Shown: piece after piece, positions 32 to 43,650 of the stretch | Numbering within the stretch: the stretch's first letter is position 1 | Layout of the letters: each line of letters starts with the position of its first letter | NCBI RefSeq assembly: GCF_947623445.1 | Contig: NC_135244.1 | Location: 19,840,860 to 19,904,859, forward strand | Origin: Clavelina lepadiformis | Lineage: Eukaryota; Chordata; Ascidiacea; Aplousobranchia; Clavelinidae | DNA length: 64,000 bases | Direction: 5' to 3' | Notes under the pieces: model-generated | Database searches by the model: none | Seen by the model: only the letters and a program-made list of their open reading frames with translations | What the model was told of the DNA's origin: nothing | Made by a program: the position numbers and the translations under genes

Positions 32-11339
<11,308 letters not shown>

Positions 11340-12402: not shown

Positions 12403-12497
12403 GGCTATATAGTATTTACTTAATTCATTAGAGCGGAACAAACAGCTGATGTATAGAAATCATAGTTACGTTCCAGAAATCATACAAATCACATTAA

Positions 12498-13241
12498 AAA
12501 AATTATATTGGCTACTTGTAAATGTTTGTTTCACAGTACTGTATTTAGCGCCAAACCGTAAAGAATCTAGAATTAAATATGACGTAACTATTGCTTCACA
12601 GAGTAAATAAACTGTTTTAACCGGTTTACTACAAATTCTACAATTGCAATTATTATGGATCGAAATCTATGACTTCGATACAGGTTGTTTTTGTTTTTCA
12701 GAATAATATTATTATTATTATTACTTCTCGAATCATCTTCGGTAGAAAAATTGAATCGCCAATTTGAAGATTTAAAACATTTTTAGGACGAATGTTTCAG
12801 CATGTGTGACATTGTAACTATGCACATTGCAGCGGATGAGAACGATCTATCGCCTGGTGCAAGGATTTCTGACTCAGTGATGCACTTCGTCCTCTAGTGG
12901 CAAAAAACTTATAAATTTTACGACGAGCCATATCTTTGTATTGTGTGCAGGTTTGGACTCAACACTTGGAGGGTTTGAGCACATTGACGTGCTCTATCAC
13001 ATCAAGTGGATCTCCGATGGGGAATCATATCGCTCTCTAGTGGCGGAAGAAGAAAAACAATTGAATATTTTTAAAACGTTTAGTTTTGTTTGGATGGTTT
13101 AGTAACTTTGCATATTAAAGCGTATGGCTAAAATCCTTCACCATGAGGACAGAATATTGAAGGAGTTTATCGTATCGCACTGTAATAATGGAAATGTAAC
13201 ATTACGAATAACTTAAAATCAAGTAATTTCTTTGCACTGAA
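12498..13241. other. Left-arm-only 744-bp segment bordered by TTAA
   Basis: The right arm runs straight from the bases before 12498 into those after 13241 at one TTAA. The left arm has TTAA at both borders. It may be a TTAA-targeting insertion, or sequence lost from the right arm. The CTCTAGTGGC motif occurs twice inside (about 12892 and 13033). No inverted ends or coding sequence were seen. Confidence 0.55.
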
Positions 13242-14835
13242 TTTAATGATGATGCTTGACAGCAACTAGATAAAGGAGCCATTTTGCATTATCTATGATA
13301 AGAATGCTTTCTAGTGGCGAGAAAGGTTTTTATAGAATAAAATTGTTTCCAAGGGAATCTCTTGGGATTGTGCTAATTGTCATAATTAGTCCGTATTCCT
13401 ACGAATTCCGGTGCAGATCTGATGATAATATAATGTTATTAGGGTTTTATTTCGTGCTTTTAACAATAAGCACTGGGCTATATTTTTGTCGTGTTCAGTA
13501 TTTTATTTCAAACCAACATTAAAATGTTTTTTATGTTTGATACTTTTCTCCGATTTCAATCCATATCGAGATTGACTCAATGTCTCGTTTACTATTATAA
13601 TGCCCTTTTGGTCAGTGTTTAACAGAGCTGTTGTGACCAGAGACTGGGTTCTTGTACGTTTAACTTGAATGATATCCAAATTGAAAAAACTAATGTTTAT
13701 ATTTTCCATAAATGGTTTGTTTCGAACGTTTAAGAAGTGAATAGAGCGACTACACTACAGTGACTAGCCGTTATAGCAAGAAGTTTCCCAGACATAGGAA
13801 TTTAGCGTGACAATTGCGCTGAAAAACTGCGACCTTGCACAGATTTCGAAGCGAGCATCATGCGGCGGTTTGCTAAAAGTAAATCTTTTTATTCATAACT
13901 GCCATTGATCACAAATTCCCACGCCATGATAGCTGAGAGTGTGCTCATATCGCTACCGATAATATGTTGAAAGTACAGTTAAATGGCCGGAAAATTGTTC
14001 TTCGTTTGTCTAGTTCCGGTGATTTAAAAGCGCTTAGTGATGTACAACATTGCCATCGGTCAATATTTGCAAAAACAAGTAAAACAAGTTTAGTTTATTG
14101 AAGTAGAAAAATGAAGTTTGTATAACGTTTATTGAATTATTATGATAAAATTTTACTTCTATGTAATGCAGCATAATGAAGTTTTAATTGTTCTTGTAAT
14201 ACCTTTGATGCTACAAAACAAAGTTAGTGTTTTAAAAGTTATGCTGATAAATGCAAATAACTTCTATATAACTACATTAACATGCGTCGCCATACTTCTG
14301 AAACGGAGTTGGTTTGCGAATTGTCACAAATATTGACGTTTCGTCACCTATACTTGTTCTACAACTTATCGAATATCAGAAAAAGATTGCTATGTACAAA
14401 CTGCAAATATAGACTGTAGTTTATGAGTAAGAATCAGAGCAAATGGCCTATACAGGCGTCATTTACTACACGAAGTCGTTTTCTTCAATATAAGAAACGA
14501 TCCGTTAAGAAATATGAATGGGTGACTTTGCTACCTGAACCAAGCAATATATCGTGATTTATATAAAATATTTTCATCTATACGTAGAAGATAGGAATAT
14601 AAGAACTAAAACAGTTTTCTTTTCTTTGTCATAGTTTCTTAGTTTCATAGAAATTCTTTCCTTAATCAATGGTGTGGTCCCATATTGTACATCCAGTATT
14701 TTCAAAGCACTTGGAAACCAACGATGCGATATATTTCATTTAGTTTGAATATTGTTGCAGATTTCGTTTGTTCCCAGATCTTTGATGTTTGTTTTAGTAC
14801 GAAATTAAGTCGTTTTCTTCTTGGTACATTCTTAG
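13242..14835. other. 5' flank of gene A, no gene seen
   Basis: Non-coding, shared with the right arm at about 41555-43500. About 900 bases before the gene A start (13855-13935) it holds a block repeated upstream of A' (about 42520-42605) and of gene C (about 28507-28590). No clear TATA box. Confidence 0.5.
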
Positions 14836-17709
14836 ATGCATTACTCAAAGGGTGCTGCAGTTATTTTGATCACATTCTGGATATTACTGCTAATTAGTTT
14901 ACAGCCAAGTTACATGGGATTTAAACGGAAAACAGCGGCTCGTAAAAAAGAATCTGCACTAGTCATGCACCACAAATATCCTCTTTCAACATCATCGCCA
15001 ACATCAAATGAGATGTTTTCATCTTCAATATCCATCGGGAATGAAAGAACGTTCATGATGGGAACTGGACAAAGTTGGACCTCGTCAGCTCAAGTGATGC
15101 AACAGGAAACGTACGAATTGAGATGCAAAGGTAAGTTAAACAACACAATTATTCTGTCAATACAACTTTATTTAACTTTATTGCAATTAAGATTTTTTAA
15201 ATTTTTTCCATCTTGTTTTGACTACAGCCTATTATTTTCTCTTAGTACATTTTAAGTACATTATTACCATATTTTTAAATGCATTTTTACTTTTTTTGTG
15301 TAAGATGTTTCAGAGAATTCGTTTTGCTTTCTTCAATACACAGAAGCTCTATTTATTTGTTAACGATTTGGTTTTATAAATAAGCAGCTACATTTAAAAC
15401 AGCGTGTTACATATTAGTTATAGCAGCACACTCACTTTTGTATATTAGCTTTACAAAATCATTTTAAGTAAATTATGAGGGAAATATAGTTTAACTGAAT
15501 AGACATTTAATATTGATTTGAGATTGTTTTTTGCCCTGTTTTGTTTGCAGTGCGTTATTTGGGCTGCTTTTGTGAGAAGAAACCAGAAAAGTTTTTTAAA
15601 AAGCAATCGATTTATTTGATGGACAACAAAAATCCAAAAGATTGTTTCAAGATTTGTTCTCAAAAGTAAAACATTGAAGCAACTTAATTGTTTTTTATAA
15701 TAAGTAATATTAAGTAAATCTACTATATTTCCAACTTTAATATTATAACTCAGTAATTAATATTTGTTTACCTTTTTGTAAAGATTAACAAATTTTTAAA
15801 ATTTTTTTGCAGTTTATTTTAACATTTTTTATAGGCACTCAAAACTTGTAGCAAGGACACCAATAAAATGTATTTGTGGAAATATGCTTATTCAGTATAA
15901 AGCCCTAAGCCCTAGCAACAAGTGTAAAAACAATATCTTGACTAATCCAAAAGTAACCTGTGCCAGAAACGATGTAGCAGCCGAAATTTATCTTATAACA
16001 AAATTCTGTGAGAACGGTAAAACATTTCATTTTGGTTTCAAAAAGTTTGTAACTAACAATTATACTTCTTTTGTTCTGTATAACGGTTGCTGCCTTCTGA
16101 TGCATTTCAGAAACCTTAACCATGGAAAGCATCTCAAGCAACTTTATCGGTCTTTTCAAGGAGCCTTCAAATTTTCATGAAACAACAATATCTGAGCCTA
16201 TTTCTGACGATTCAGAGCTCACACCAGTTTGGTGTTATTTGTATTGTGAGAGAAAGGAGCAAACCTTGTCGATGGTAACCGCTGCAAAGAAGTGTCACTG
16301 CGGGCATACTACTGACCAGTGAGTAAACATATGAATATATATAAGACAACGTTATTATTTCCTTGCGTACAACGATGTAAATGTATTCAAATTGTTATGA
16401 ACTTTTTGTTGTATTGCTGGTCAACGATGACTATGTTTTCTCTTTGAAGATTTCGACTCAACAATACACTGGAGTCAAAATCAAATCCAGTTATTAGATC
16501 TGACACGGTGGCAGTATGGCGCACTGCAGCGCAAGATTTCCGTTGTGATCTCCGGATATTTCTACCTCCACAAACGTCGGAAACAATTTTTCTTCGCAGT
16601 GTTCCGGGCTCTGGAAATACGTGGTTGAGACATTTAATTGAAAGCGCAACTGGTGTATTTACAGGGAGTGTTTACCACGACCAAGTTTTGGCTTCGGGAG
16701 GTATTACAAAATTAAATATTGCAAAACAATTCTTTTAAAAGATTAAAAGCTATATAAGTACTTGTAAAAAACACTACATGGCACAATTGTTAGTTAGTTT
16801 GCCTCTTTTCCGAAGTTGTACGTTCATTTAGAAGAAACAAGTATTAAAAATCCAGTTGGCATTTACATAAATAGCCGTCCATCATACAGTATTAATCTTG
16901 ACTGCTCATTATTAAAGACTGTGAAAACTTGCCAGGGTTTCTTGGAGAACTTGATAACACTTCTAGTGGAAGAACTTCAGTTATCAAAGCTCACGCTGCT
17001 GGAAACAGCAATTCCAAGAACATCGTCTTAATTCGAAACCCGTTTGATGCTATTCTTGCTGAGTACACCAGGCGACGCTCCCATTCACATACAGGACTAG
17101 GAAACATCAAGATATTTGACAAACCAGGTTTATAATTACGCTTTCGCTTCACCAGTATATAACTTCTCTTAAAAGTATGAATTTTCAGTTTAAGTTTGTT
17201 CAACTAACTTATAAATTGCAATCATTATATAGGCCTAATTGTTTTATACTTTAACATTTTATGTAAACCAAAACATAACAAAAATTTGTACCAAGATTTT
17301 AAAGCTAATAAGTTATCAGTTTTTTTTTGTACAAATTTTAGATTGGACGCAAAGTGTCAAAAGTTTGGCCAAAAACTGGTTATCACGAAATATTGCTTAC
17401 TTAAAAAGTGGGAAGATTTCCCTTCTCCTTGTGGTCTATTACGAAGATGTTAAACAAGATCATGTCAGAGAATTACGACGGATCGTGGACTTCACTGGAT
17501 TCAAGGTAAACAAATTGGAAGAACGTTTGCTCTGCTTGCAACTGGAGAGCACCGGATTGTTCAAGAGGCCGCCAAGGAAAGATGGTTTCAATCCCTACTC
17601 AAGAGACCAAATTAAATTAATTAACGATACCATTGCAACTCTGAGGAGTTACATTGAAAAGGACGCAAAATCTCTACCTCCGCTCCCAAACTACGAAAAA
17701 CAACTCTAA
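14836..17709 (+). CDS. Gene A: WSC-domain sulfotransferase-like type II membrane protein (WSCD1/2-like), 536 aa
   Basis: Seven exons: 14836-15130, 15551-15665, 15835-16016, 16111-16318, 16450-16700, 16936-17127, 17342-17709; 1611 nt, open throughout. Residues about 8-27 form one membrane segment after a short N-terminus (type II Golgi topology). Exons 2-4 hold cysteine-rich WSC-type sequence ([19 protein letters not shown], then [16 protein letters not shown] and CHCGH). Exons 5-7 hold a sulfotransferase fold: [14 protein letters not shown] (PAPS 5'-phosphate loop), [15 protein letters not shown] (3'-phosphate strand and helix), and [10 protein letters not shown] with EERLLCLQ near the end. 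The human WSCD proteins (about 570 aa) share this order; members have been linked to glycan sulfation, but the substrate here is inferred only. AATAAA lies at 17827-17832. Confidence 0.9.
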
Positions 17710-17826
17710 CATGTATAAGAATGTGGTAAAATCCACAATTTGTTTCATCTTATAATGTTCTGTTTATTTGATCTTGTTTGTTTCATTTGGTCGCTTACTT
17801 ATTCATCCAATCAGTTATAAAGATGG

Positions 17827-17832
17827 AATAAA
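17827..17832 (+). terminator. Poly(A) signal of gene A
   Basis: AATAAA lies 118 bases after the gene A stop codon. Confidence 0.6.
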
Positions 17833-18682
17833 ATTCTTTGACCGTAGTTACTGCAATTAACAATCGCTGTCTTTGTGCGTCTCCGAATATATTTCTGCAA
17901 GAAAAGACGAAACAAAATTTTTGCATTTCATTCCTGACTAAATTGTATCATCAAAATCAATAGACGACATGGCCATGTTTGAAAGCGTCATGTGATTTTA
18001 TGCAGAGTCGTAATGATTCACGTCAGTGACTTGAGCTATTTTGACTTGACCCCGAGTCTCATTCTCAGAATTTACATAAATGACTTGACTTGGTTAAAGT
18101 CAGTTCTTGTTAATATTAGGTTTTAAGGTAAAACAAATGGTGGAAAGTGATCTGTTATTTTTATTGATGTAATATTGCAAATAATGTTCGATAAAATCGA
18201 AAGAAACAGTTTTAGATGAATTGCAGATCACTTTTTTCCAAATAAATCAAGAAATTTTATGCGCCTCAAATGAAAAAGCTAAATTCAAACATAAAAATAC
18301 CTGAACTGAACCCAAAGTGCAACATGGCATGACAAAGTATAAACTAAATAGTAGGTTATCTTGAAATGTTATGTTAAAAGTATGCATAACAAATTGGTAC
18401 AAAAATACATAAAAACAAAAAACAATTGATAAAATGTAGAGAACAAACATGCCAAATATGCAAAAGACGCATGAATGGTGTGAACAACAGCACACACCTG
18501 ATTTCGACAACGTAAAAAGGTCGTAAATTTCAAACAAGCGTTTTACATTTTTTTGTGTATACCGAATAGTTTGGTTTAAGTTCTTCTGCATAATAGCTTG
18601 TATACAATGAGTAATGTAATGGTTTTGTTATATCACAATGCTGTCTGTTGTGACACAATAATAGCGTCTGGACAATTTTTGA
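17833..18682. other. Convergent intergenic region A / left FAXC-like
   Basis: Non-coding. It is matched in the right arm (about 39771-40560), where the MULE has entered. It contains TGACTTGACY motifs at 18030-18105 that recur elsewhere in the window. Confidence 0.5.
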
Positions 18683-20031
18683 TCAGCCGCATTGCTGTTG
18701 CATTTCATCCCAGGATGTTGTCCCTTCTGGAATACACAGTTTATCCCAATCCGGCCAATACATTTGCTTCATTCTCTCAACATATGCGACTAAATTGGGA
18801 TGATTTTCCGTTACGTCTTTTGCAGAGACAGAGTTGGATCCAGTGAATATGATTAACCCGACAAATCCGAAGATGACGGCATCTACTTCGCTTGGTTGGG
18901 AGCCCATGAAAAATTCCTTCTCACCCAAGAAATCGGCGATGGCTCCTAAATCCAACTTTGCAATTTTCAGTATCTCTTCCTCGCTGTGCCTTCCTATGCC
19001 CTGCCCCTAAGTGTATGTAATATAGTGGTTACGAGTAAATTAATAATGAAATTGAAATGTCAATCAGAGCTTAAATAAATTAAATTGTTCAACAACACAT
19101 AAGCTACTGTATATTTGAAGCTTTCTTTATCAATAAAAAACCTTAGATTTACCCTCATGTTTTTTCTTAGATCTGGTCTTAGTTTCAAAGACGTATACCA
19201 TGAAAACAATTTCGTGGCGAATCTGTTTGGAAATGGTATTAAGTCCAAAATGCTATCATCCATCAACCACCGTTGGTATGCTAAGGTCCAGTAGAGATTG
19301 TCTTCGACAAGTCTTTGAAAGGACAAGGCGATTGCTTTCTCAGCTGGGGTCAAATGTGCGTTTAGGTCTTTTTTATATTCAGAATTTAGATACTGGATAA
19401 TAAACGAGCTGTCTTCCACGATTTTTCCATTGTGTTCAATATACGGAATTTTGCCTTTCGACGGCATTTTGGTGGTAAACCAAGGCTGTAAAAAACAAAA
19501 CTGGGGTTAAATATTTCCGTCAAAAATAAACATAAATGTCTACAAAAAGTCAGCTGTTTTACTAATATGTTTACCTTATACTTTATATCAGTCATTCTTA
19601 AGTATGTTTGAAGTTTCAGATTAAATGGAGACAAGCATGGCCCCAAGAACGATTTTCCAAACCCAAAGACAGTGATTTCATCCTTAACGACGTTTCTGCA
19701 ACAGAAGCACGTATTTACATCGTGCATAGCATAACGCTGACAAAGTGCGCTATGCTATATATATGCCTTGCTCTCAAGTGTATGCATAAACTGTGTTATA
19801 CCGCATTTGCTGCAAAAGCTGTAAAACGTGACACTATTTTATCTCAAGCCGGCAAACAACTTGATTGCTCCAAGCGCAGTGAACAATTGCAGAAAGAAGA
19901 CAATACGAAAAATACTCAAACTGTGGGTGCTTGATTGATATCAGTACCGTACAGTTTGACGATAAAACCGTTCAATTAAAATATTGTACTTTGACTTACC
20001 CGCTTGACTGCGCTTCCATTTTTCTTGACAT
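18683..20031 (-). CDS. FAXC-like / glutathione S-transferase-fold protein, left-arm copy, 269 aa
   Basis: Four exons on the minus strand: 20031-20000, 19695-19575, 19485-19153, 19006-18683; 810 nt, open. The thioredoxin-like N half reads VFGFGKSFLGPCLSPFNLK, QTYLRM, then KGKIPYIEHNGKIVEDSSFI; the helical GST C half holds YWTLAYQRW and GQGIGRHSEEEI, FFMGSQPSEVDAVIFG and YWPDWDKL. This matches the failed axon connections (FAXC)/metaxin-like branch of the GST superfamily. It lacks an obvious catalytic GST signature, so enzymatic activity is unknown. The start chosen is the first ATG after a TATA box at 20172-20179; that reading joins exon 2 in frame. It is almost identical to the right-arm copy at 35642. 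Confidence 0.9.
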
Positions 20032-20171
20032 TGGTCTTTTCTGTCTGCTTGAGTATTCAGAAATAGCAACAACAATAACACAACTAATACGAATTTTTTC
20101 GAGGTAATAGTCAGTAATCGGTATTCGTTTGCTTCTCAATATGTTTTGAACCGAACTCTGTGCGCCAGGCT

Positions 20172-20179
20172 TATTTATA
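20172..20179 (-). promoter_or_regulatory. TATA box of the left FAXC-like gene
   Basis: TATAAATA on the minus strand, about 140 bases before the chosen start codon. The same box precedes the mirror copy at 35495. A start of transcription near 20147 is inferred. Confidence 0.65.
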
Positions 20180-21833
20180 CACACTTCTACTCAAGGACAC
20201 GTCTTGCCTTGCAGCAAAGTTGCGTCATTACGCGCTTTGTAATCACTGTCAGCTGACCGGATAAGCCGTGACTAGTGTGACTAAAATTTTTCGTTTAGTA
20301 TACATTACAGGCATCTCACGATCACGGTTTGGCGTGATATATGACACAACTGTAATCAGGGGAAAAGCCGTCATATTTTACTGTAAAGTAAACCAATTAT
20401 CTTCAGTTTGCAGAATCCTTACTCTTCCTTAAGTTAAGTTACGCAAGTCTTACGGTGCTGCTCACTCTTGCATGTCAAGGTACGCAACTATTTCTGTAGT
20501 TACGAAAGGGGTGAACTTACCTACAGCAAACCTAAATTTGGGGTTTTAAGTAAATTAGTAAAAATTAATTTATCTTTAGCATAAATATATAATTTTAATA
20601 ACCGAAAACTACCAAGAAATGTGGTATAAGGTTACGATTAAAATGGCATTGTTGCTAGCTAAGTGCATGTATCTGTGCCTTTAAGCGTTTTTTAAGCACA
20701 CGGCAATGAATTAAGTTTACCGAATAGTGTTTTTAATACCTGTCACACCAAGGCATTACTACTGTACAACGGGACCACGCAAGTAACAGCAAAGCGTTGA
20801 AAAATCATACACAAACCTACAGTACATCAGAAATAACAATCTTATTGTCGGATCAGTCGTTCTTAAAGTATGTTGCGTCGTCGTACTATGTTTCTTGGCT
20901 GTATTTTGTTTTCTTTTTTAGCAATAAATTTTATTGCGACATTATATTGCAAATTGAAGTGTAAAAGAAGCTTGCAGTGAAGATAACGGAAAAGTTACTG
21001 AACCGTAACGCGAAGGACAAGCTACCAGTTTTTTTTTAAAAACAGAGAAGAATTTTAAAAGTAGTTTTAAAGGAGTGAACAATGTAACTTAAGAAAATGC
21101 AAGTGTCGAACAGAAGAACAAGCCCACTATAGTTTATCATCATGACGTGTTAGTTTTAAACTTTAGGTTTATTTTTATCTTTATCGTAATTATTAGAATG
21201 ATTTTATCCATACAGTTCTTGTTATGGCTTACAGTCACGCAAACATGATTAGCTTGGAGAATTCAATTTATGGAATTTTTACCGTGTCTTTACGCAAATA
21301 CTTTTGAAAAAAAGTATATTTTTGGTATAGGGTTTTTATAGTCACGTGACCAGTGTCGGTTAAAAAAATTTGATATCATGACGTCTAAAAGCCTGACGTA
21401 TAACATGCATGCATATAACTATGTCATGCATTTAACCACAGACATGCGTAAACATTTCCAGTTTAACAAAGCACTTTACAGTTCTTAAGCTTAGGTCACG
21501 ATGAACGGAGTGGACTTTGTACTGGAACAGTTTGAGAACAGTTCACCACACTGGCCGACAACTAAAATCAGTGAAAGAATCGTCTCATTAAATTGATATG
21601 CATTTCATGCTGGCCAAGCGAAATACACCCTCATACACACTAAAAAAAGAATCGTATAGGCTATATACTTTGAGAAAAAGTATTACAAAATTATATTCTG
21701 CAATTTCTCTCTTTACGTCATACACTCTTCATTTAGTACTCGATGAATGAACACCAGGCGCGTTTAACACAAACAACTTGAAGCCGAACTGCTTGTGAGG
21801 TTCAGTTATCTCTTCACGGCCCACTGTTAGCGC

Positions 21834-21998
21834 CATTGGCGTAGCCAGAAAAAAAATTGGGAGTCCAAATATTTCATGAGTTCAAGGGAACTACAAAGTG
21901 CTTGTTTTAAGACACCGCCACCTGATGTATAAGCCTATGGACACAAAACTTGGGGGGGGGGGGCATGGCCCCTTTTGCTCTCCCTGGCTACGCCTATG
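21834..21998. mobile_element. 165-bp hAT-type MITE, left-arm copy
   Basis: Inverted termini CATTGGCGTAGCCAG and CATAGGCGTAGCCAG (reverse-complemented right end) are flanked by an 8-bp target duplication GTTAGCGC (21826-21833, 21999-22006). The mirror position in the right arm carries the same element, so it predates the duplication. Confidence 0.85.
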
Positions 21999-22299
21999 GT
22001 TAGCGCATAAATGGGTGGCAATGCAAGCAAGATAGCATAACCTACTGCTTGTGGCTTTTTCATTTATCAACGGTGTTGTGCATTATTGTGCGTTTCTCAC
22101 AATATTATTCCGATAAACTTATCATGGCGATATAATCTGTGCATGTACAACTAAATGTTATCAATCGTTAGTCACATTGTCACATTGTCACATGTTAACA
22201 TCATCAGTTTCAATTCTGAGAGTACAGCTGGCCCCAAAGGAATTGCGACTTGTACGGGTTAAAGAGGAGGTGTGCGTTTACATTCAACTGCAGGTGTTA

Positions 22300-23076
22300 C
22301 AGTCGAATCCGATTAATTGCATTCTGGATAATCGCATAATCCGTTTTATCGCATGAAGAGCGCAAATCCCAAACCATAGTCTATTATTTGTAAAGATAAT
22401 ACTTCGGTTTATCGCATAACGGTTTATTGCATAATCCGCTTAATTGAATAAAAATGAAGGTAATTTATTCGATTATTCAAAAGTTTTTAAAAGGTAAAAT
22501 TGAAAACAACGCGCACTGGAAGCGCAGTGCGCACACGCAATGAATGAGCTTTGTGACTTGAAGTGCGCTGTGTAACTGTGTTACGAAACAATCAAAAGCA
22601 CAGCAGCACACAGCAAAAGACGACAGAAAGAGAAAAAAGACGACATTAACGAAGAAAGCTCTGCTGACGCAATCGCTGCGACTGCACCAAAAAATAAAGA
22701 AGTTCTGCATGCACTTGATACAATTCGCCAACGACTACAGTTTGAAGGGGCGGACATGGCCACATTTGTTCGTTTAGATTTAGAAACACAAATGCAAGAA
22801 AGCATGCAAAATAAAATTAAATAAACAACAATCACGCAGTATTTTTCTTGATTAAACAATAAATGTCAGAGTATTTTGTTTTGTTTGAATGAATTCATGA
22901 TCGCAACACACAATAAATGTTAGTGGATTGCGTGTGCGGGCGTGTTGATGTCGTTACACGTGACTAGCTTCGCACGTCAAGTAAGAAAATAAGTGGAATT
23001 TGCACTTTCGGATAAACGCATAATTCGTTTAATCGCATAAAAAGGCTTGGCAATTTGACTATGCAATTAACCGGAT
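22300..23076 (+). mobile_element. Pogo/Tigger-like element with transposase C-terminal remnant, left arm only
   Basis: The left end CAGTCGAATCCGATTAATTG follows TA; the right end carries the inverted counterpart, slightly eroded (ATGCAATTAACCGGAT). The unit AATCGCATAA recurs inside both ends. On the plus strand about 22620-22824 encodes an acidic-to-helical tail (VLHALDTIRQRLQFEGADMA, then FVRLDLETQMQ) ending in a stop. It resembles the C-terminus of Tigger/jerky-type transposases. The right arm has the uninterrupted site near 33350-33360. Confidence 0.82.
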
Positions 23077-23632
23077 ACGCATACGAAGAAAAACAAGCAA
23101 AAGCATGAGTACACATTTTGCAAAGTCATTCACAAAATTATACTGTGTGCTAGGGAAATTTTCCTTTATTATTATTTATAACTATAATAATATTTACATT
23201 TTTAGGGATAGGCATGTAGGTACAAGTTTTTTAGGGTTGTACAAGAACAGTGAGCTAAATCACGCAATACAATACAACTAACAACAAAAACAGATAAAAA
23301 CGTGCATATCAACCCGAACTTGTTCAAAGGCCAACGCTCGGAAATCGGGGCTCGATCGATGAGAAATCATCGCCGAGATTAAATCATACAAAGACTTTGC
23401 TCAGTCCGAAGATAAAGATTACGATAAATATCATAAATGACAAATGCGCTATGCATCAGCAGGTAGTTTGAAATACCAATCAATCAGCTGCATTTAAAAT
23501 AAATACCGACATTAACCAGACATATAAATCTACTTATATATATTACATGGGTATATATATATTTGTAATTAGATCAAAGCTTACAGCTCAATAGCTATTG
23601 AAGAAAATTACTACACAACAAATAAATATATG

Positions 23633-32796: not shown

Positions 32797-35494
32797 CATA
32801 TATTTATTTGTTGCGTCGTAGATTGCTTCAATAGCTATAGAGCTGTAAGCTTTGATCTAATTACAAATATATATACACCCATATAATATATATAAGTAGA
32901 TTTTATCTGTTTGGATAATGTCGGTATTTATTTTAAATGCAGCTGATTGATTGGTATTTCAAACTACCTGCTGATGCATAGCGCATTTGTCATTTATGAT
33001 TAACCGTATAGATAATATGATATCGTAATCTTTATCTTCGGACTGAGCAAAGTCTTTGTATGATTTAAACTCGGCGATAATTTCTCATCGCTCGAGCCCG
33101 ATTTCCGAGCGTTGGCCTTTGCACAAGTTCGGGTTGATATGCACGTTTTGATCTGTTTTTGTTGTTAGTTGTATTGTATTGCCTGATTTAGCTCACTGTT
33201 CTCATACAACCCTAAAAATTGTACCTACATGCCTATCTCTAAAAATGTAAATATTATTAAAAAATAGAAATTGCCCTAGCACACAGTATAATTTTGTGAA
33301 TGACTTTGCAAAATGTGTACTACTGCTTTATGTTTGTTTTTCTTGGTATGCGTAATAACAGCTGCAGTTGCCTGTAAACGCACACCTCCTCTTTAACCCG
33401 TACAAGTCGCAATTCTTTTGGGGCCTGCTATGCTCCCAGAATTGTAACTGATGATGTTAACATGTGATAATGTGACTAACGATTGATAACATTTAGTTGT
33501 ACATGCACAAATTGTATCGCTATGATAAGTTTATGGGAATCATGTTGTCAGACTCGCACAATAATGCGCAATACCGTTGATAAATGAAAAAGCCACAAGC
33601 AGTAGGTTATGCTATCTTGCTTGCATTGCCACCCATATAGGCGCTAACCATAGGCGTAGCCAGTGGGGCAAATTGGGCCATGCTCCCCACCCCCCAATTT
33701 TTGTGTCTATAGACTTCTACATCAGGTGGCGGTGTCTTAAAACAAACACTTTCTAGTTCACTTGAACTCATGAAATATTTGGACCTTGAAATTGTTTTCT
33801 GGCTACGCCAATGGCGCTAACAGTGGGCCGTGTAGAGATAACTGAACCTCACAAGCAGTTCGGCTTCAAGTTGTTTGTGTTAAACGCGCCTGGTGTTCAT
33901 TCATCGAGTACTAATTGAAGAGTGTATGACGTAAAGAGAGAAATTGCAGAAAATAATTTTGTAATACTTTTTCTCAAAGTATATAGCCTATACTAGTGGT
34001 TCCCAACCTTTTTTAGTCCTTTTTTTCTGGTGTGTGCGAGGATGTATTTCGCTTGGCCAGCATGAAATGCATATCAATTAAATAAGACGATTCTTTCACT
34101 AATTTTAGTTGTCGGCCAGTTTGGTGAAAAAACTGTTAAAGTACAAAGTCCACTCCGTTCGTCGTGACCTAAGCTTAAGAACTGCAAAGTTCTTTGTAAA
34201 ACTGGAAATGTTTACGCATGTCTGTAGTTAAATGCATGACATAGTTATATGCATGCATGTTATACATCAGGCTTTTAGACGTCATGATATCAAAATTTTT
34301 TAACCCACACTGGTCACGTGACTATAAAAACCCTATACCAAAAATATACTTTTTTTAGAAACACGTTCAAAAGTATTTGCGTAAAGACATGGTAAAAATT
34401 CCATAAATTGAATTCTCCAAGCTAACCATGTTTATGGGTCAGTATGCCATAACGAGAACAATATCGATAAAATCATTCTAATAATTATGATAAAGATAAA
34501 ATAAACCTAAAGTTTAAAACTAATTTGTCATGATAATAAACTATAGTGTGCTTGTTCTCCTGTTCGACACTTGCATTTTCTTAAGTTACATTGTTCACTC
34601 CTTTAAAACTACTTTTAAAATTCTTCTCTGTTTTTGTAAAAAAAAACTGGTAGCTTGTCCTGCGCGTTGCGGTTCAGTAACTTTTCCGTTATCTTCACTG
34701 CAAGCTTCTTTTACACTTTAATTTATTATATTGTCGCATTAAAATTTTATTGCTAAAAAAGAAAACAAAATACAGCCAAGAAATATAGTACGACGACGCA
34801 ACATACTATAGGAACGGCTGATCCGACAATAAGATTGTTATTTCTGATGTACTGTAGGTTTGTGTATGATTTTTAAACGCTTTGCTGTTACTTGCGTGGT
34901 CCCGTTGTACAATAGTAATGCCTTGTTGTCACAGGTATTAAAATCACTATTCGGTAAACTTAATTCATTGCCGTGTACTTAACAAACGCTTAACGGCACA
35001 GATACATGCACTTAGCTAGCAAGAATGCCACTTTAATCGTAACCTTATACCACATTTCTTGGTAGTTTTCGGTTAGTAAAATTATATATTTATGCTGTAG
35101 ATAAATTAATTTTTAATAATTTACTTAAAACCCCAAATTTAGGTTTGCTGTAGGTAAGTTCACCCCTTTCGTAACTACAGAAATAGTTGCGTACCTTGAC
35201 ATGCGAGAGTGAGCAGCACCGTAAGACTTGCGTAACTTAACTTAAGGAAGAGTAAGGATTCTGCAAACTGAAGATAATTGGTTTACTTTACAGTAAAATA
35301 TGACGGCTTTTCCCCTGATTACAGTTGCGTCATGTATCACGCCAAACCGTGATCGTGAGATGTCTATAATGTATACTAAACGAAAAATTTAAGTCACGTT
35401 AGTCACGGCTTATCCGGTCAGCTGACAGTGATTACAAAGCGCGTAATGACGCAACTTTGCTGCCAGGCAAGACGTGTCCTTGAGTAGAAGTGTG
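32797..35494. other. Intergenic region between gene C and right FAXC-like gene
   Basis: Mirror of 20180-23632 without the pogo-like insertion. It carries the right-arm hAT-type MITE at 33649. A hAT-like tip (AGTGGTTCCCAACC, about 34003) has no matching second end. No gene was seen. Confidence 0.5.
33649..33813. mobile_element. 165-bp hAT-type MITE, right-arm copy
   Basis: Same length and same termini as the left-arm copy, with target duplication GCGCTAAC (33641-33648, 33814-33821) on the opposite strand. Confidence 0.85.
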
Positions 35495-35502
35495 TATAAA
35501 TA
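35495..35502 (+). promoter_or_regulatory. TATA box of the right FAXC-like gene
   Basis: TATAAATA, 140 bases before the chosen ATG, conserved with the left-arm copy. Confidence 0.65.
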
Positions 35503-35641
35503 AGTCTGGCGCACAGAGTTCGGTTCAAAACACATTAAGAAGCAAACGAATACCGACTACTGACTGTTACCTCGAAAAAATTCGTATTAGTTGTGTTATT
35601 GTTGTTGCTATTTCTGAATACTCAAGCAGACAAAAAGACAA

Positions 35642-36986
35642 ATGTCAAGCAAAATGGAAGCGCAGTCAAGCGGGTAAGTCTCAGTACAATATTTTATTGA
35701 ACGGTTTTATCGTCAAACTGTACGGTATTGATATCAACCAGGCACCCATAGTTTGAGTATTTTTGGTATTGTTTTCTATCTGCAATTGCTCACTGCGCTC
35801 GGAGCAATCAAGTTGTGTGCCGGCTTTAGATAAAATAGTGTCACGTTTTACAGCTTTTGCAGCAAATGCGGTATAACACAGTTTATGCATACACTTGAGT
35901 GCAAGGCATACATAGCATAGCGCACGTCATCAGCGTTATGCTATGCACGGTGTAAATACGTGCTTCTGTTGCAGAAACGTCGTTAAGGATGAAATCACTG
36001 TCTTTGGGTTTGGAAAATCGTTCTTGGGGCCATGCTTGTCTTCATTTAATCTGAAACTTCAAACCTACTTAAGAATGACTGATATAAAGTATAAGGTAAA
36101 CATATTAGTAAAACAGCTGACTTTTTGTAGACATTTATATTTATTTTTGACGGAAATATTTAACCACAGTTGTGTTTTTTACAGCCTTGGTTTACCACCA
36201 AAATGTCGTCGAAAGGCAAAATTCCGTATATTGAACACAATGGAAAAATCGTGGAAGACAGCTCGTTTATTATCCAGCATCTAAATTCTGAATATAAAAA
36301 AGACCTAAACGCACATTTGACCCCAGCTGAGAAAGCAATCGCCTTGTCCTTTCAAAGACTCGTCGAAGAAAATCTCTACTGGACCTTAGCATACCAACGG
36401 TGGTTGATGGATGATAGCATTTTGGACTTAATACCATTTCCAAACAGATTCGCCACGAAATTGTTTTCATGGTATACGTCTTTGAAACTAAGACCAGAAC
36501 TACGTAAAAACATGAGGGTAAATTTATGTTTTTTATTGATAAAGAAAGCTTCAAGTATACAGTAGTTTATGTGTTGTTGAACAATTTATTTTATTTAAGC
36601 TCTGATTGACATTTCAATTTCATTATTAATTTACTCGTAACAACTATATTACATACACTTAGGGGCAGGGCATAGGAAGACACAGCGAGGAAGAGATACT
36701 GAAAATTGCAAAGTTGGATTTAGGAGCCATCGCCGATTTCTTGGGTGAGAAGGAATTTTTCATGGGCTCCCAACCAAGCGAAGTAGATGCCGTCATCTTC
36801 GGATTTGTCGGGTTAATCATATTCACTGGATCCAACTCTGTCTCTGCAAAACACGTAACGGAAAATCATCCCAATTTAGTCGCGTATGTTGAGAGAATGA
36901 AGCAAATGTATTGGCCGGATTGGGATAAGCTGTGTATTCCAGAAGGGACAACATCCTGGGATGAAATGCAACAGCAATGCGGTTGA
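35642..36986 (+). CDS. FAXC-like / glutathione S-transferase-fold protein, right-arm copy, 269 aa
   Basis: Four exons: 35642-35673, 35975-36095, 36185-36517, 36663-36986; 810 nt, open, same structure as the left copy. The N half has VFGFGKSFLGPC, QTYLRM and KGKIPYIEHNGKIVED; the C half has YWTLAYQRWLMDD, GQGIGRHSEEE and YWPDWDKL. A handful of substitutions separate the copies (for example PSKGK to SSKGK, YLNSEY to HLNSEY, VEDN to VEEN). Single-base length differences before the ATG do not affect the protein. FAXC relatives are membrane- or mitochondria-associated GST-fold proteins; no catalytic role can be assigned. A MULE insertion begins about 80 bases after the stop codon. Confidence 0.9.
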
Positions 36987-37069
36987 TCAAAAATTGTCCA
37001 AACACTATCATTGTGTCAATACAGAGTTACAGACAGCATTGTGATATAACAAAACCATTACATTACTCG

Positions 37070-39760
37070 GTACTACGACACCTTATCGAAAGACACTTTA
37101 TCGAAAGACACTTTATCGAACGACACCTGATCGAAACGACAGCTGATCGAAAGACACTTTATCGAACGACAGTTAATCGAGCCGACAGTTGATCGAACGA
37201 CACTTTATCGAAACGACAGCTGATCGAACGACACTTTATCGAACCGACAGTTAATCAAAACGACAGTTGATCGAACGACACTTTATCGAACCGACAGTTC
37301 AAGCAAGATTTTTGCGTGTTTCTCAAACATTGAAACAATGAGCCATTGTGATGTGCGGTCTTTGTAATGGTGTGCATTAATGAATTGTGATGTATATATC
37401 ATAAAGTTGACGATTTATATTTTATATCTATATTTTATATTTGTATCATAAAGTGTTCGATTTCGCATGGCGGCCGGCCCGCCCACATATTAATAAGATA
37501 TCACAAGAATACGCACGAGAATTGCTAAGTACGAGATTGTCTGTACAGTAGACTAGACTAGTCATTATAGATACAAAGAGTAAGGAATTGAAGGCAAAAT
37601 TTTATAGGAAGGGGCATGTCGCTGCCTGACTTTTACACAAAGTAGCTTCTTGAAAGTAGTCTTTGTCCCAGCTTGACCGACAGCGCAAAATAAATGGCTT
37701 CGATGCTTGGTAGCACGTACACATGTGAACAAATATTTTCAACAATGAAATTCACGAAAAGCAAGCTAAGATCACGCATTTCCGACGCCTATTTAGAAAA
37801 TGTTCTGGTTCTTGCTTCATATGACTTGTCACCAGATGTTGAAAAACTTTCACAAAGCAAGCAGCATCAAGTGTCACTTTAATGCTGTGTTGTTGAAGTG
37901 TGAATACAGATATTTTGCGCTTCTTGTGATTGGTACGATTGAGATTGCAGAGTCAATGTACTGAAGTGAGTGTGAATTATTGTATTAATGAGGCATCAGG
38001 TAAGTAAATAAAGTGACTAACCGCTAGAAGGGAAAAAGTGTTACCGTAGTCTGTGATATAAATTCATAATCAACAGGAAATATTTCATTTATTTATATGT
38101 TATTATTTATTTATGAGTAGGGCAACCAAAAGTCATTATGGTCAATTTTTTTTACCTGCTCAGAATGCTATGAAACAAGCACAAAACAAATTTCAGCTTT
38201 GTACGACGTGTGGTATAGAAGTTATTAGGTCAGATAAAGTCAAAATGTTACGTTAGGTCAAAATACAGCATATAATGCTCTTTCTTCCAGCTTCCCTCGG
38301 GCAGAAATTCTCGGCTACCTTTTCCATTTTGGCCAATGTAGCTTCCGGAAAATTCAGGCTCTCTCTCTGCAGCGGTGGTTCAATGAAGATGCAGAGCACG
38401 CCCTTCGCATAAAATGCTTCCAGGCACTGGCATTCGTTCCGCCTGACGACGTTGTACAACGGTTCGAGGACTTCCTGGCCACGTTCAGTGACGACGATGA
38501 GCAGCACTTGTCTGAATACATTGACTATTTTGAAACTACTTGGATTGGACGGTTGTGTCGCAGGAATCGTCGTCAACCTCTATTTCCTATCCGGTGTTGG
38601 AATGTTTTCCACCGGGTTCAAGATGACCTTCCAAGAACGAATAATAGCATTGAAGGATGGCACAATGCGTTCAGCAAGCGTGTCTCATTATCCCATCCGA
38701 CGCTTCGAAGACTCGTCAAAAAAATTAAGCGGGAACAAGGTTCCAACGAAATGTTAATTGAGCAATTGAGTGCTGGAATCGATGGCCCACCTCGGAAGAA
38801 GCGCTACGACGCTGTCAACCAACGGCTGAAGAGCATAGTTGAAAATTATGACTCAACAAATATGGACATAAAAAGTTATCTTCGAGCAATTGCACACAAC
38901 TTGTAATTAAATGAATGCGATTGAAATGTGCACTTCGTCAGTTGTCGTGCTTTTAACAGTGCATATCGTCAGTTGTTTCGATAAATTGTGGTTCTTTTAA
39001 TAAATTGTCGTTCTTTTAACAGTGCATATCGTCAGTTGTTTCGATAAATTGTGGATCTTTTAACCCTATCCTAACCAGGCTCGCGAGTTTACTAAAAAAG
39101 CTAGGTGTGGCCAACCCCGCACACACATTTGCAATCGTTAATTACTAGAAACCTATGCGTCGTAGACTGATGAGATTATTACAGGTTAGTAGAAACATCA
39201 TCTGGCTTCCTGTATACATCATAATTGTAAAACTAAAGAAAGTGAATTTAGTGTAAATTAGGTATTTCTAAAAGTGACACATTTCTATAAATTCTTCTTG
39301 TTACGCCGCGCCCCCGCTGTGAGAAGAGAACGAAAAAGAATAGTTAGTCAAGTTATTGGTGCGTAAATGAGTAATACGTTTCAATGCGGAGAGAGAGCAA
39401 AATTATATAAATATCACAATATCTCAAAAATTACAAAATCCAACTTTATCAAACAAACATGGACAGATAGCTGAACATCACAATGACCCATTGTTTCAAT
39501 GTTTGAGAAACACGCAAAAATCTTGCTTGAACTGTCGGTTCGATAAAGTGTCGTTCGATCAACTGTCGTTTTGATTAACTGTCGGTTCGATAAAGTGTCG
39601 TTTGATCAACTTTCGGTTCGATAAAGTGTCGTTCGATCAACTGTCGTTTCGATCAGGTGTCGTTTCGATCAGGTGTCGTTCGATAAAGTGTCTTTCGATC
39701 AGGTGTCGTTCGATTAAGTGTCGTTCGATAAAGTGTCTTTCGATAAGGTGTCGCGTCACG
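37070..39760 (+). mobile_element. Mutator-like element (MULE), 2.7 kb, right arm only
   Basis: A target duplication ACATTACTCG flanks it (37060-37069, 39761-39770); the left arm has one copy of the site (ACATTACTCA). The inverted ends run about 290 bp, to 37355 and from 39473. They are built of short tandem units GACACYTTATCGAA / GACAGYTGATCGAA. About 38277-38906 is an open C-terminal transposase stretch (LFHFGQCSFRKIQAL, ALAFVPPDDVVQRFEDF, DDLPRTNNSIEGWHNAF) ending in a stop, typical of MULE transposases. The N-terminal half with the first catalytic Asp residues is missing, so it is defective. Confidence 0.93.
37694..37882 (+). mobile_element. hAT-transposase C-terminal fragment inside the MULE
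   Basis: An open frame of 62 codons reads SMLGSTYTCEQIFSTMKFTK, then SKLRSRISDAYLENVLVLAS. This is the hAT dimerisation signature seen in GTF2IRD2/ZBED-type proteins. A stop lies directly before the first Met. It is either a captured fragment or a nested, deleted hAT element. No hAT termini were seen around it. Confidence 0.8.
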
Positions 39761-39770
39761 ACATTACTCG

Positions 39771-40679
39771 TTGTATACAAGCTATTATGCAGAAGAACTT
39801 AAACCAAACTATTTTGTATACGCAAACAAATGTAAAATGCTTGTTTGAAATTTACGACCTTTTTACATTGTCGACATAAGGCGTGTGTTGTTGTTCACAC
39901 CATTCATGCGTCTTTTGCAGATTTGGCATGTTTATTCTCTGAATTTTATCGATTGTTTTTTGTTTTATGTATTTTTGTACCATTTGTTATGCATACTTTT
40001 AACATATCATTTCAAGGTAGACTACTGTTTAGTTTGTACTTTGTCATGTCATGTTGCACTTTGGGTTCAGTTCAGGTATTTTTATGTTTGCATTTAGCTT
40101 TTTCATTTGAGGCGCATAAAATGTATTGATTTATTTGGAAAAAAGTGATCTGCAATTCATCTAAAACTGTTTCTATCGAACAGTATTTTCAATATTACAT
40201 CAATTTGTAGGATTTCCAACAATAAAAAGAACCGATCACTTACCACCATTTGTTTTACCTTAAAATCTAATATTAACAAGAACTGACTTAACCAAGTTAA
40301 GTCATTTATGTAAATTCTGAGAATGAGTCTCGGGGTCAAGTCAAAATATCTCAAGTTACTGACGCGAATCATTACGACTCTGCACAAAATCACATGACGC
40401 TTTCAAACATGGCCATGTCGTCTATTGATTTTGATGATGCAATATAGTCAGGAATGAAATGCAAAAATTTTGTTTCATCATACTTTTCTTGCAGAAATAT
40501 ATTCCGAGACTCACAAAGACAGCGATTGTTAATTGCAGTAACTAAAGTCAAAGGATTTTATTCCATCTTTATAACTGCTTGGATGAATGAGTAAGCGACC
40601 AAATGAAACAAACAAGATGAAACAAATTGAACATTATAAGATGAAACAAATTGTGGATTTTACCACATTCTTATACATG
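39771..40679. other. Convergent intergenic region, right arm
   Basis: Mirror of 17710-18600. Non-coding. Confidence 0.5.
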
Positions 40680-41554
40680 TTAGAGTTGCTTTTCGTAGTT
40701 TGGAAGCGGAGGTAGAGATTTTGCGTCCTTTTCAATGTAACTCCTCAGAGTTGCAATGGTATCGTTAATTAATTTAATTTAGTCTCTTGAGTAGGGGTTG
40801 AAACCATCTTTCCTTGGCGGCCTCTTGAACAATCCGGTGCTCTCCAGTTGCAAGCAGAGCAAACGTTCTTCCAAGTTGTTTACCTATTCAGTTAAACTAT
40901 ATTTCCCTCATAATTTACTTAAAATGATTTTGTAAAGCTAATATACAAAAGTGAGTGTGCTGCTATAACTAATATGCAGCAAGCTGTTTTAAGTTTAGCT
41001 GTTTATTTGTAAAGCCAAATCGTTAACAAATAAATAGAGCTTCTGTGTATTGAAGAAAGCAAAACAAATTTTCTAAAACAGCTTACATAAATATATAGTA
41101 AAAGTGCATTTAAAAATATGATAAAAATGTACTTAAAATGTACCAAGAGCAAAGAATAAGTTGTAGTCAAAACAAGGTGAAAAAGTTAAAAAAAATCATA
41201 ATTGCAATAAAGTTAAATAAAGTTGTATTAACAGAATAATTGCGTGGTTAATTTACCTTTGCATCTCAATTCGTACTCAATTTCCTGTTGAATCACTTGA
41301 GCTGACGAGGTCCAACTTTGTCCAGTTCCTATCATGAACGTTCTTTCACTACCGATGGATATTGATGACGTAAACATCTCATTTGATGTTGGCGATGATG
41401 TTGAAAGGGGATCTTTTTGGTTCATGACTAGTGCAGATTCGTTCTTAGGAATCGCCGTTTTCCGTTTAAATCCCATGTAACTTGGCTGTAAACTAATTAG
41501 TAGTGATATCCAGAATGTGATCAAAATAACTGCAACAACCTTTGAGTAATGCAT
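40680..41554 (-). pseudogene. Gene A': deleted copy of gene A
   Basis: Exon 1 (41554-41257) is intact and encodes the same membrane anchor and stem as gene A. Intron 1 then runs for a few hundred bases and joins abruptly, at about 40885, to the 3' part of the last exon (ending at 40680). Exons 2-6 and the start of exon 7 are gone (about 2 kb; equivalent to about 15497-17505 of the left arm). The remaining last exon has a CAA-to-TAA change after NPYSRD. No sulfotransferase core is left, so a functional enzyme is excluded. Confidence 0.9.
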
Positions 41555-43608
41555 CTAAGAATGTAACAAGAAGAAAACGACTTATTTTCGTACTAAAACA
41601 AACATCAAAGATCTGGGCACAAACGAAATCTGCAACAATATACGAACCAAATGAAATATATCGCATCGTTGGTTTCCAAGTGCTTTGAAAATGCTGGATG
41701 TACAATATGGGACCACACCATTGATTAAGGAAAGAATTTCTATGAAACTAAGAAAGTATGATAACGAAAAGAACGGCTGTTTTGGCTCTTATATTCCTAT
41801 CTTCTACGTATAGATGAAAATATTATATATAAATCACGATTTATTGCTTGGTTCAGGTAGCAAAGTCACTCAACCATATTTCTTAACCGTTCGTTACTTA
41901 TATTGAAGAAAACAACTTTGTTTAGTAAATGAGGCCTGAAAATGCCATTTTCTCTGATTCTTACCCATAAACTATATACTGTGTATATTTGCAGTGTGTA
42001 CATAGCAATCTTTTTCCAATATTCGATAAGTTGTAGAACAAGTATAGGTGACGAAACTGCAATATTTGTGACAATTCACAAACTAACACCGGTTCGAAAG
42101 AATGGCGACATATGTAAATGTAGTTATATAGAAGTTATTTGCATTTATCAGCATAACTTTCAAAACACTAACTTTGTTTTGTAGCATCAAAGGTATTACA
42201 AGTACAATCAAAACTTCATTATGCTGCATTATATAGAAGTAAATTTTTATCATAATAATTCAATAAACTTTATACAAACTACATTTTTCTACTTCAATAA
42301 ACTAAACTTGTTTTTGCAAATATTGGCCGATGGCAATGTTGCACATCACTAAACGCTTTAAAATCAACGGAACTAGACAACTGAAGAACAATTTTCTGTA
42401 ACAACTGTAACAACAATTTTCTGTAACAACTGTAGTTTCAACATATTGTCAGTAGCGATGTGATGTGTAGGGATGTGATGTGTAGCGATGTGAGCCCACC
42501 CTTTAGCTATCGTGGCGTGGGAGTTTGTGATCAATGGCAGTTATGAATAAAAAGATTTACTTTTAGCAAACCGCCGCATGATGCTCGCTTCGAAATCTGT
42601 GCAAGGTCGTAGTTTTTCAGCGCAATTGTCACGCTAAATTCCTAGGTCCGGGAAACTTCTTGCTATAACGGCTAGTCACTGTAGTGTAGTCGCTCTATTC
42701 ACTTCTTAAACGTTCAAAATAAACCATTTATGGAAAATAAAAAAACGATTTTTTTCAATTTCGATATCATTCAAGTTAAACGCACAAGAACCCAGTCACT
42801 GGTCACAACAGCTCTGTTAAACACTGACCAAAAGGGCATTATAATAGTAAACGAGACATTCAGTCAATCTCGATTTGGATTAAAATCGGAGAAAAGTATC
42901 AGACATAAAAAACCTGAGGAAATTTCACCTTGATTTGAAATAAAGTTATTGCCCAAAGAAACGGTCTGCAATACAAGAAAAGTACAGATCCTACGCTAAC
43001 TGGGCTAGTTGTTGGGGTTGATTGTTGTTAATTACAGCTTGATCGATTGTTCGTTATTCTGACTCCATTGATAGCGCGTTCATTAACCTCTGATAGCCTG
43101 GTTGAGCATCACAGTACCAAACCACACTGCCAATATCTTGAATATTGATATATTATTTATTCTGAACGAAACGGTTACTCAGAGCACAAAATAGAGTTAC
43201 ATTCAATAGACTGTTAATAATCGACTGGCACTACTAAACTGAACTATTGATGACTAACGCACTGAATGCTCTAATCGGAAGTAATCAAACCCGTATACTG
43301 AACACAACCAAAATATAGAGCAGCGCTTATCGTTAAAGACAGACACCAGACTTTGTAGGAATAAGGACTAATTATGAAAATTAGCACAATCCCAAGAGAT
43401 TCTCTTGGAAACAATTTTATTTTATAAAACTCATTCTCGCCACTAGAGAGTATTGTTATCATTGATAATTTGTGACAGGACTCATTTATCTAGTTGCTGA
43501 CAAGCATGATCATTAATGTGATTTGTTTGATTTTTGGAACGTAATTATGATTTCTCTACATCAGCTGTTTGTTCCGCTCTAATGAATTAAGTAAATGCTA
43601 TATAGTAG
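41555..43608. other. 5' flank of A', no gene seen
   Basis: Mirror of the gene A flank. It includes the shared upstream block (about 42520-42605). Short local triplications at about 42400-42490 (ACAATTTTCTGTAACAACTG twice, then GATGTGATGTGTAG repeats) are absent from the left arm. Confidence 0.5.
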
Positions 43609-43650
43609 GGCTACCCAAAGAGTAGTCTAGAAAGGTTAGTAGGCCTATCT

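Follow-up and report, generated by a model that had tools for sequence, protein, structure and literature searches.

Rearrangements of the type designated DUP-NML-INV/DUP are known mainly from human disease cohorts. At the human PLP1 locus, one study describes them as two gained segments with unchanged DNA between them; in one possible form, two direct copies of the distal segment flank the inverted proximal one, and oppositely oriented long interspersed nuclear elements (LINEs) or Alu elements mediate one template switch, with microhomology at another (PMC6902434). Ectopic gene conversion has been reviewed for the palindromic Hsp70 and Amylase gene pairs of Drosophila (PMC3924832). Here, we describe a locus that recalls both systems, a cluster of WSC-domain sulfotransferase and FAXC-like genes in the ascidian Clavelina lepadiformis. 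The window, that is, the whole stretch of 64,000 nucleotides analyzed, most likely lies on chromosome 5 (C5:19840860-19904859; other chromosomes are abbreviated likewise) and has a GC content of 35.96%, compared with the 36.0% given for chromosome 5 of the assembly kaClaLepa1.1 (PMC10884593). Our data represent a single haplotype of a single species, and genome searches covered 209,060,895 bases in 95 contigs.

The locus is real and well resolved, and it is the product of known processes and not a new kind of system. It probably arose when a replicative event with two template switches, of the DUP-NML-INV/DUP type, was laid upon an old gene pair, B and C, already marked by conversion. From left to right, the window contains a methionine synthase gene (-), the sulfotransferase gene A (+), FAXC1 (-), sulfotransferase gene B (-), a spacer, sulfotransferase gene C (+), FAXC2 (+), a transposon, a remnant of a second copy of A, named A' (-), and a partial sulfotransferase gene, D (+). 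To the right of D follow an open reading frame (ORF) with an NYN domain (+), a third FAXC-like gene (-), and the gene of ribosomal protein L6 (-). The gene models were built from sequence alone, without transcripts.

The arms of the inverted duplication

A BLAST comparison of the window against itself gave inverted homology between 12405-26498 and 43605-30357, essentially where the original prediction had placed two arms (12403-26165 and 30645-43608). That prediction described a single 13-kb duplication, but two layers of different age are present: B and C are old paralogs, and only the outer block, with FAXC, A and their flanks, is young. The left arm (12405..23598, its inner limit being approximate) carries A, FAXC1, the flanks and the 3’ untranslated region (UTR) of B, and is the source of the young inverted copy, the right arm (32831..43605), whose outer end adjoins D; these limits come from BLAST, block alignment and informative sites.

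Six colinear inverted blocks connect the arms: 12405-12497/43513-43605 (94.6% identity), 13243-13501/43295-43516 (85.5%), 13502-15502/40884-42944 (92.2%), 17504-18617/39761-40885 (94.8%), 18609-22299/33356-37068 (95.25%) and 23076-23935/32494-33354 (95.4%), where identities count mismatches only and the 9 bp of a transposon target duplication fall in two blocks and are counted twice. In sum, 7452/7915 positions (94.15%) are identical and 463/7915 differ (5.9%; Jukes-Cantor (JC) distance 0.061). The four large blocks range from 92.2 to 95.4% and 250-bp windows from 88.4 to 98.4%; for the large blocks, BLAST gave E-values displayed as 0, which excludes chance. An extra inverted block, 25632-26498/30357-31176, is 84% identical. 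Two stretches of about 0.75 kb each are found in the left arm only (12498-13242 and 22300-23075) and one of about 0.35 kb in the right arm only (42945-43294). None of three random 60-kb control windows (0/3) had inverted repeats reaching 500 bp and 80% identity, versus 8,688 bp in our window; three controls, one of them a satellite, are too few for a rate.

The genes had been described as mirror images in the same order. The inverted blocks are indeed colinear, but A is intact only on the left (14836..17709, +). On the right, A' (40680..41554, -) retains exon 1 (41257-41554) and the last part of exon 7 (40680-40885); everything else was removed by a 2.0-kb deletion with two bases common to both sides of the joint, as judged by eye. 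The predicted miniature inverted-repeat transposable element shared by the arms was recovered as a 166-bp dispersed short repeat (21834..21999, right copy 33648-33813); its copies are 88% alike, and since both arms have it, it is older than the arm duplication.

Inverted repeats are prone to misassembly and ascidians can be very heterozygous, which would speak for an assembly artefact, either two joined haplotypes, as the original prediction had considered, or a hairpin read. We find such an artefact hardly credible. Beyond the 5.9% of differing positions, the arms are set apart by the 2.0-kb deletion, by indels and by insertions that only one arm has, among them a 2.7-kb transposon, and they are inverted. 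No N occurs anywhere within the window, and the flanks beyond D and beyond the left arm are distinct, without counterpart in the window except for one 39-bp match. The quality figures in the assembly report, 117x HiFi coverage, a consensus quality value (QV) of 67.4 and a BUSCO duplication of 0.6%, also weigh against it (PMC10884593).

Patchy identity between the old paralogs B and C

Genes B (23633..27917, -) and C (29804..32796, +) stand head-to-head. The unique center of about 4.5 kb formerly assigned to the locus in fact holds exons 1 and 2 of both genes, and the true center is the 1,886-bp spacer between their start codons (27918..29803). Between B and C, the synonymous divergence (dS) of exons 1 to 7 is 1.28, 0.58, 0, 0.10, 0.22, 1.00 and 0.17. 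Near identity is confined to exon 3 (182/182), intron 3 (122/125, 97.6%), exon 4 (202/208) and the last 196 bp of exon 7 (196/196), whereas exon 6 (142/192), exon 2 (92/115) and exon 1 (117/193 aligned) are divergent, and introns 1, 4 and 6, with 46-53% identity, are unalignable. The near-identical coding exons and shared introns of the original prediction are therefore a property of the FAXC pair (dS 0.044, nonsynonymous divergence (dN) 0.013), which B and C share only in these patches. It is important to note that single B/C exons would yield a synonymous divergence anywhere from 0 to more than 1, a warning for the dating of such genes.

Two patches are delimited in C. The first extends from exon 3 through intron 3 to exon 4 (30643..31165, +), and within it 232 bp (30643-30874), from exon 3 into intron 3, match B exactly, the longest such stretch; the second covers the end of exon 7 and the 3’ UTR (32598..32813, +), where 216 bp are exactly as in B. 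At polymorphic sites, the longest identical B-C run comprises 62 sites in exons 3-4 (A, B and C compared) and 46 sites in exon 7 (A, B, C and D compared), and each was reached in 0/10,000 permutations, as was a B-D run of 26 in exon 4; no pair involving A stood out in this test. Judged from the sequences, such patchy identity is the mark that ectopic gene conversion leaves on old paralogs in inverted orientation, and we suspect that the close, mirror-image arrangement of B and C is the reason why they can convert each other.

Two simpler histories meet their evidence here. A single recent inverted duplication of the whole cluster without gene conversion would suit the low divergence of the FAXC block, but we give it practically no credence: it is ruled out by the state of introns 1, 4 and 6 and by exons 1 and 6 with a dS of at least 1.0 beside an identical exon 3, and the B-C runs, never reached by permutation, also oppose it. 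Quite improbable, too, is a single old inverted duplication of the whole cluster, the outer arms of which were kept alike by long or repeated conversion while the inner parts diverged. The B/C patches show that ectopic conversion acts at the locus, and arm identity does vary somewhat along its length; yet in the four large outer blocks, which span about 7.6 kb and are mostly noncoding, identity averages 92-95%, no window in them falls as low as the B/C introns, and D, together with its position next to the arm end, is left unexplained. The original prediction had offered recent origin or continuing homogenization. Recent origin applies to the outer block and homogenization to the B/C patches, and neither accounts for the whole cluster. 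The locus thus separates block duplication from patchy conversion, which are easily lumped together as a “recent inverted duplication”.

Conversion between B and C probably went on after the arms were duplicated. In exon 3, intron 3 and the last part of exon 7 taken together, B and C differ at 3/503 positions (JC 0.006), compared with 463/7915 in the arms (Fisher p 2e-9). Moreover, in site patterns from the alignment of B, C and D, where BC|D denotes C agreeing with B and CD|B denotes C agreeing with D, gene D is the odd one out in the patches: 7 BC|D and 0 CD|B sites in intron 3, and 8 and 0 in the last part of exon 7.

B and C resemble the Drosophila Hsp70 and Amylase palindromes, as reviewed, in being neighboring mirror-image paralogs with identity tracts beyond chance (PMC3924832). 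They differ from those pairs in that homogenization is restricted to exons 3, 4, the end of exon 7 and one intron, and in that the pair carries a younger, nested block duplication.

In exon 4, A is like B, C and D in the last 104 bp (96-99/104) and unlike them in the first 104 bp (56-57/104). A WSC-sulfotransferase gene at C5:2.16 Mb is likewise 84% like A there, over 90 bp, so for this similarity conversion and constraint are not separated. A and D agree at 99/104 positions in the last 104 bp (16215-16318 and 43872-43975) and at 56/104 in the first. We also considered a paralog elsewhere as the origin of the divergent interior of B: the query 23936-25631 returned itself, a dispersed repeat (24643..25088), C/D exons and no donor among the 40 of 442 candidates scored. 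This repeat is inserted in intron 5 of B; C and D have no copy of it.

Junctions of the young copy and its proposed origin

Gene D (43646..45654, +), beside the right arm, was absent from the account given in the original prediction. It is a 5’-truncated second copy of C, to which it is 92.8% identical (BLAST). Exons 1-3 are missing, the copy beginning about where exon 3 ends, and an in-frame TGA interrupts exon 5. The site patterns group C with D within the genes, with CD|B to BC|D counts of 139:8 in intron 4, 35:6 in intron 5, 48:0 in exon 6 and 77:3 in intron 6, 299 versus 17 in sum; exon 5 is mixed (CD|B 23, BC|D 13). Beyond position 32836 in C the pattern flips, with BC|D counts of 31, 91 and 149 versus CD|B counts of 1, 1 and 5 up to 33350 (271 versus 7 in sum), and D has no homology to C there. 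The first junction, J1 (32826..32830), is where C passes from D-like to B-like, at a CTTCA common to B, C and D and 13 bp past the 216-bp exact B/C run. The second, J2 (43606..43645), is a short filler that separates D from the end of the arm, its length being 40 bp according to BLAST and perhaps about 20 by eye, so that D starts some 20-40 bp from the outer end of the arm (43605). The divergences are similar: introns 4-6 of C and D differ at 56/822 positions (6.8%), the arms at 5.9% (Fisher p 0.28). With the outer flanks unmatched in the window, this junction anatomy indicates that the right side is the derived one, in which C is followed by the left arm copied in inverted orientation, a partial second copy of C and the old right flank.

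The history that we favor would have started from an old head-to-head B/C pair with stretches kept alike by ectopic conversion. Copying would have run through C and left it in its 3’ UTR (at about 32830), switching first to the end of B, which is inverted and locally homologous, and continuing outward via FAXC and A to 12405. A second switch would have returned to C, approximately where exon 3 ends, and copying would have proceeded into the old right flank, giving C, an inverted left-arm copy and the truncated second copy of C, that is, D. Later, the transposon would have entered the right arm, most of A' been lost and D decayed, and further short tracts been exchanged between B and C. The sequence itself shows the anatomy of the locus, the junctions, the mosaic identity and the similar divergences; that a single replicative event produced the two junctions, and that the steps followed in this order, we infer. 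One event with two switches explains both junctions, the truncation of D and the similar divergence.

This arrangement is the same as one form described for human PLP1 (PMC6902434): the order C (+), inverted arm, D (+) corresponds to a proximal segment inverted between direct copies of a distal one. Two gained segments (approximately 12405-23598 and 30839-32830) have young second copies; neither the spacer nor the divergent inner part of B has one. Older B/C similarity lies between the two gained segments. As for the homology, microhomology or filler that characterizes junctions of this type, we found the shared CTTCA at J1 and the short filler at J2. Compared with the PLP1 cases as described there, we deal with an assembled structure on a scale of 2-11 kb in the genome of a non-human animal, a paralogous gene pair constitutes the inverted homology and the junctions are old (6-7% divergence). 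The locus would thus represent an evolutionary instance of the DUP-NML-INV/DUP type, with its junctions readable in one place.

An alternative in two steps is that C and D were an ordinary tandem pair and that the DNA later broke in the interval separating them; repair would then have copied the left arm, starting at the end of B, and deleted the first exons of D. This would account for the truncation of D at the arm end, and the slightly higher divergence of the C-D introns (56/822) than of the arms (463/7915) goes in its direction. We nevertheless regard it as unlikely: the near-equal ages would have to be a coincidence, and the C/D sister signal ends where the B-C arm homology begins, which is a direct result of a single event.

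Several observations weigh against the single replicative event. The excess divergence of the C-D introns, although not significant, lies on the side of the two-step alternative, and equal divergence is no proof of a single event in any case, since an older tandem copy D cut by the insertion of the arm fits as well. The run test for C and D is uneven (58/10,000 permutations), and so is arm identity, at 88.4-98.4% per 250 bp and 85.5% in one small outer block. The filler at J2 is unexplained, and J2 shows no clear microhomology. In exon 4, BD|C sites (5) outnumber those of any other pattern, an outcome that does not follow from the simple history, and part of the exon-4 similarity among A, B, C and D may be constraint, in view of the C5:2.16 Mb gene.

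Under the single replicative event, the relation between conversion and duplication deserves attention. B and D are alike in exon 4 (205/208) and in the last part of exon 7 (188/196), which suggests that B and C had been homogenized in these parts also before D separated. Since the start of exon 7 is only 94/123 alike, an inverted homology tract was probably present beside J1 before the birth of D. We tentatively propose, with somewhat more doubt than conviction, that the B/C conversion in exon 7 came first and made the homology that seeded the switch within about 20 bp of the end of the tract, and that a FAXC gene, a partial A and a truncated sulfotransferase copy were gained together in a single germline event and have all been kept since. 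If so, the concerted evolution of palindromic genes would be causally tied to the formation of DUP-NML-INV/DUP structures. As to consequences, we would guess that the duplication brings extra gene dosage and hardly anything more.

Gene families, mobile elements and flanking features

Pfam domains bear out the sulfotransferase/FAXC-like cluster that had been predicted. A, with an intact frame (536 aa), and B (540 aa) are splice-consistent seven-exon models; C also has seven exons (500 aa), its first donor being read as GC. All three exceed the Pfam cut-offs for the WSC and Sulfotransfer_1 domains (PF01822 and PF00685), PF13469 falling just below its cut-off in A, and have a hydrophobic N-terminus, as judged by eye. 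The P..G.TW residues that bind 3’-phosphoadenosine 5’-phosphosulfate (PAPS) are present as FPGAGNTW in B and C and VPGSGNTW in A. WSCD1 and WSCD2 are described as Golgi type II sialate O-sulfotransferases acting in the 8-O-sulfation of sialic acid in vertebrates, with orthologs in deuterostomes from echinoderms through vertebrates (PMC9304399). A, B and C resemble them by domain architecture and by the PAPS-motif residues mutated in that study, and their role as sulfotransferases is predicted accordingly. The difference is that one subtype is present here in several copies (A, B, C, D and the C5:2.16 Mb gene, the nearest further one by identity) among remoter genomic relatives, with more distant WSC-sulfotransferase matches on C1, C3, C4, C5, C6, C7, C8 and C9. 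For annotation, D looks like a pseudogene and A' like a remnant.

FAXC1 (18683..20031, -) and its copy FAXC2 (35642..36986, +) are four-exon genes of 269 aa with GST_N_4 and GST_C_6 domains, which we take to be marks of FAXC. The name is a provisional one drawn from these domains: the best match among solved chains is 9qd3, a glutathione S-transferase (GST) named StyI, and the NCBIfam model NF049950 scores 153 against a cut-off of 300. Among 12 candidates scored, 11/11 matches of FAXC2 lie on C5 (this window, 16.63 Mb and 19.95 Mb). The further FAXC-like genes are those at 56176-57395 (-) in the window, C5:16630214-16630927 (323 aa) and C5:19951633-19952358 (336 aa); the latter two are single open stretches, seemingly intronless, unlike FAXC1 and FAXC2.

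The DNA transposon in the right arm (37069..39760) is 2.69 kb long, has repetitive inverted ends of about 280 bp and was inserted after the duplication. Its 9-bp target duplication, ACATTACTC, stands at 37060-37068 and 39761-39769 and is single in the left arm. From this duplication and the long inverted ends we presume it to be like a Mutator-like element (“MULE-like”); its ORF at 38238-38903 (222 aa) has no match in Pfam or PHROGs. Among the 40 of 1,563 candidates scored, at least 6 further copies (5 full-length, 1 nearly so) are 99-100% identical, which indicates recent activity, and many others are partial. Two pairs of full copies lie 10-12 kb apart, at C3 12.25 Mb and C4 11.25 Mb.

Scans of the window for tRNA genes and Rfam families gave 0 hits. 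In the literature on gene conversion or duplication in Clavelina, ascidian WSC-domain sulfotransferases and gene conversion in Ciona, no title among the matches listed describes the locus, a weak negative; the ascidian sulfotransferase topic gave no paper at all, and none of those listed for Clavelina contained the species name. Two ORFs of the methionine synthase gene (-) match PF02574 and PF02310, and between its exons lie mariner-type transposase pieces in separate frames (7913-9083, -; HTH_48 and Transposase_1). The NYN ribonuclease-like domain belongs to one 507-aa ORF (49729-51249, +). Regarding the random controls, C7:8317207-8377206 consists, over 60 kb, of units of about 195 bp repeated directly in tandem, with a GC content of 27.6%, perhaps a centromeric satellite, and C2:24811873-24871872 contains direct repeats of 0.6-3.8 kb at 83-93%, that is, a tandem gene or segment cluster.

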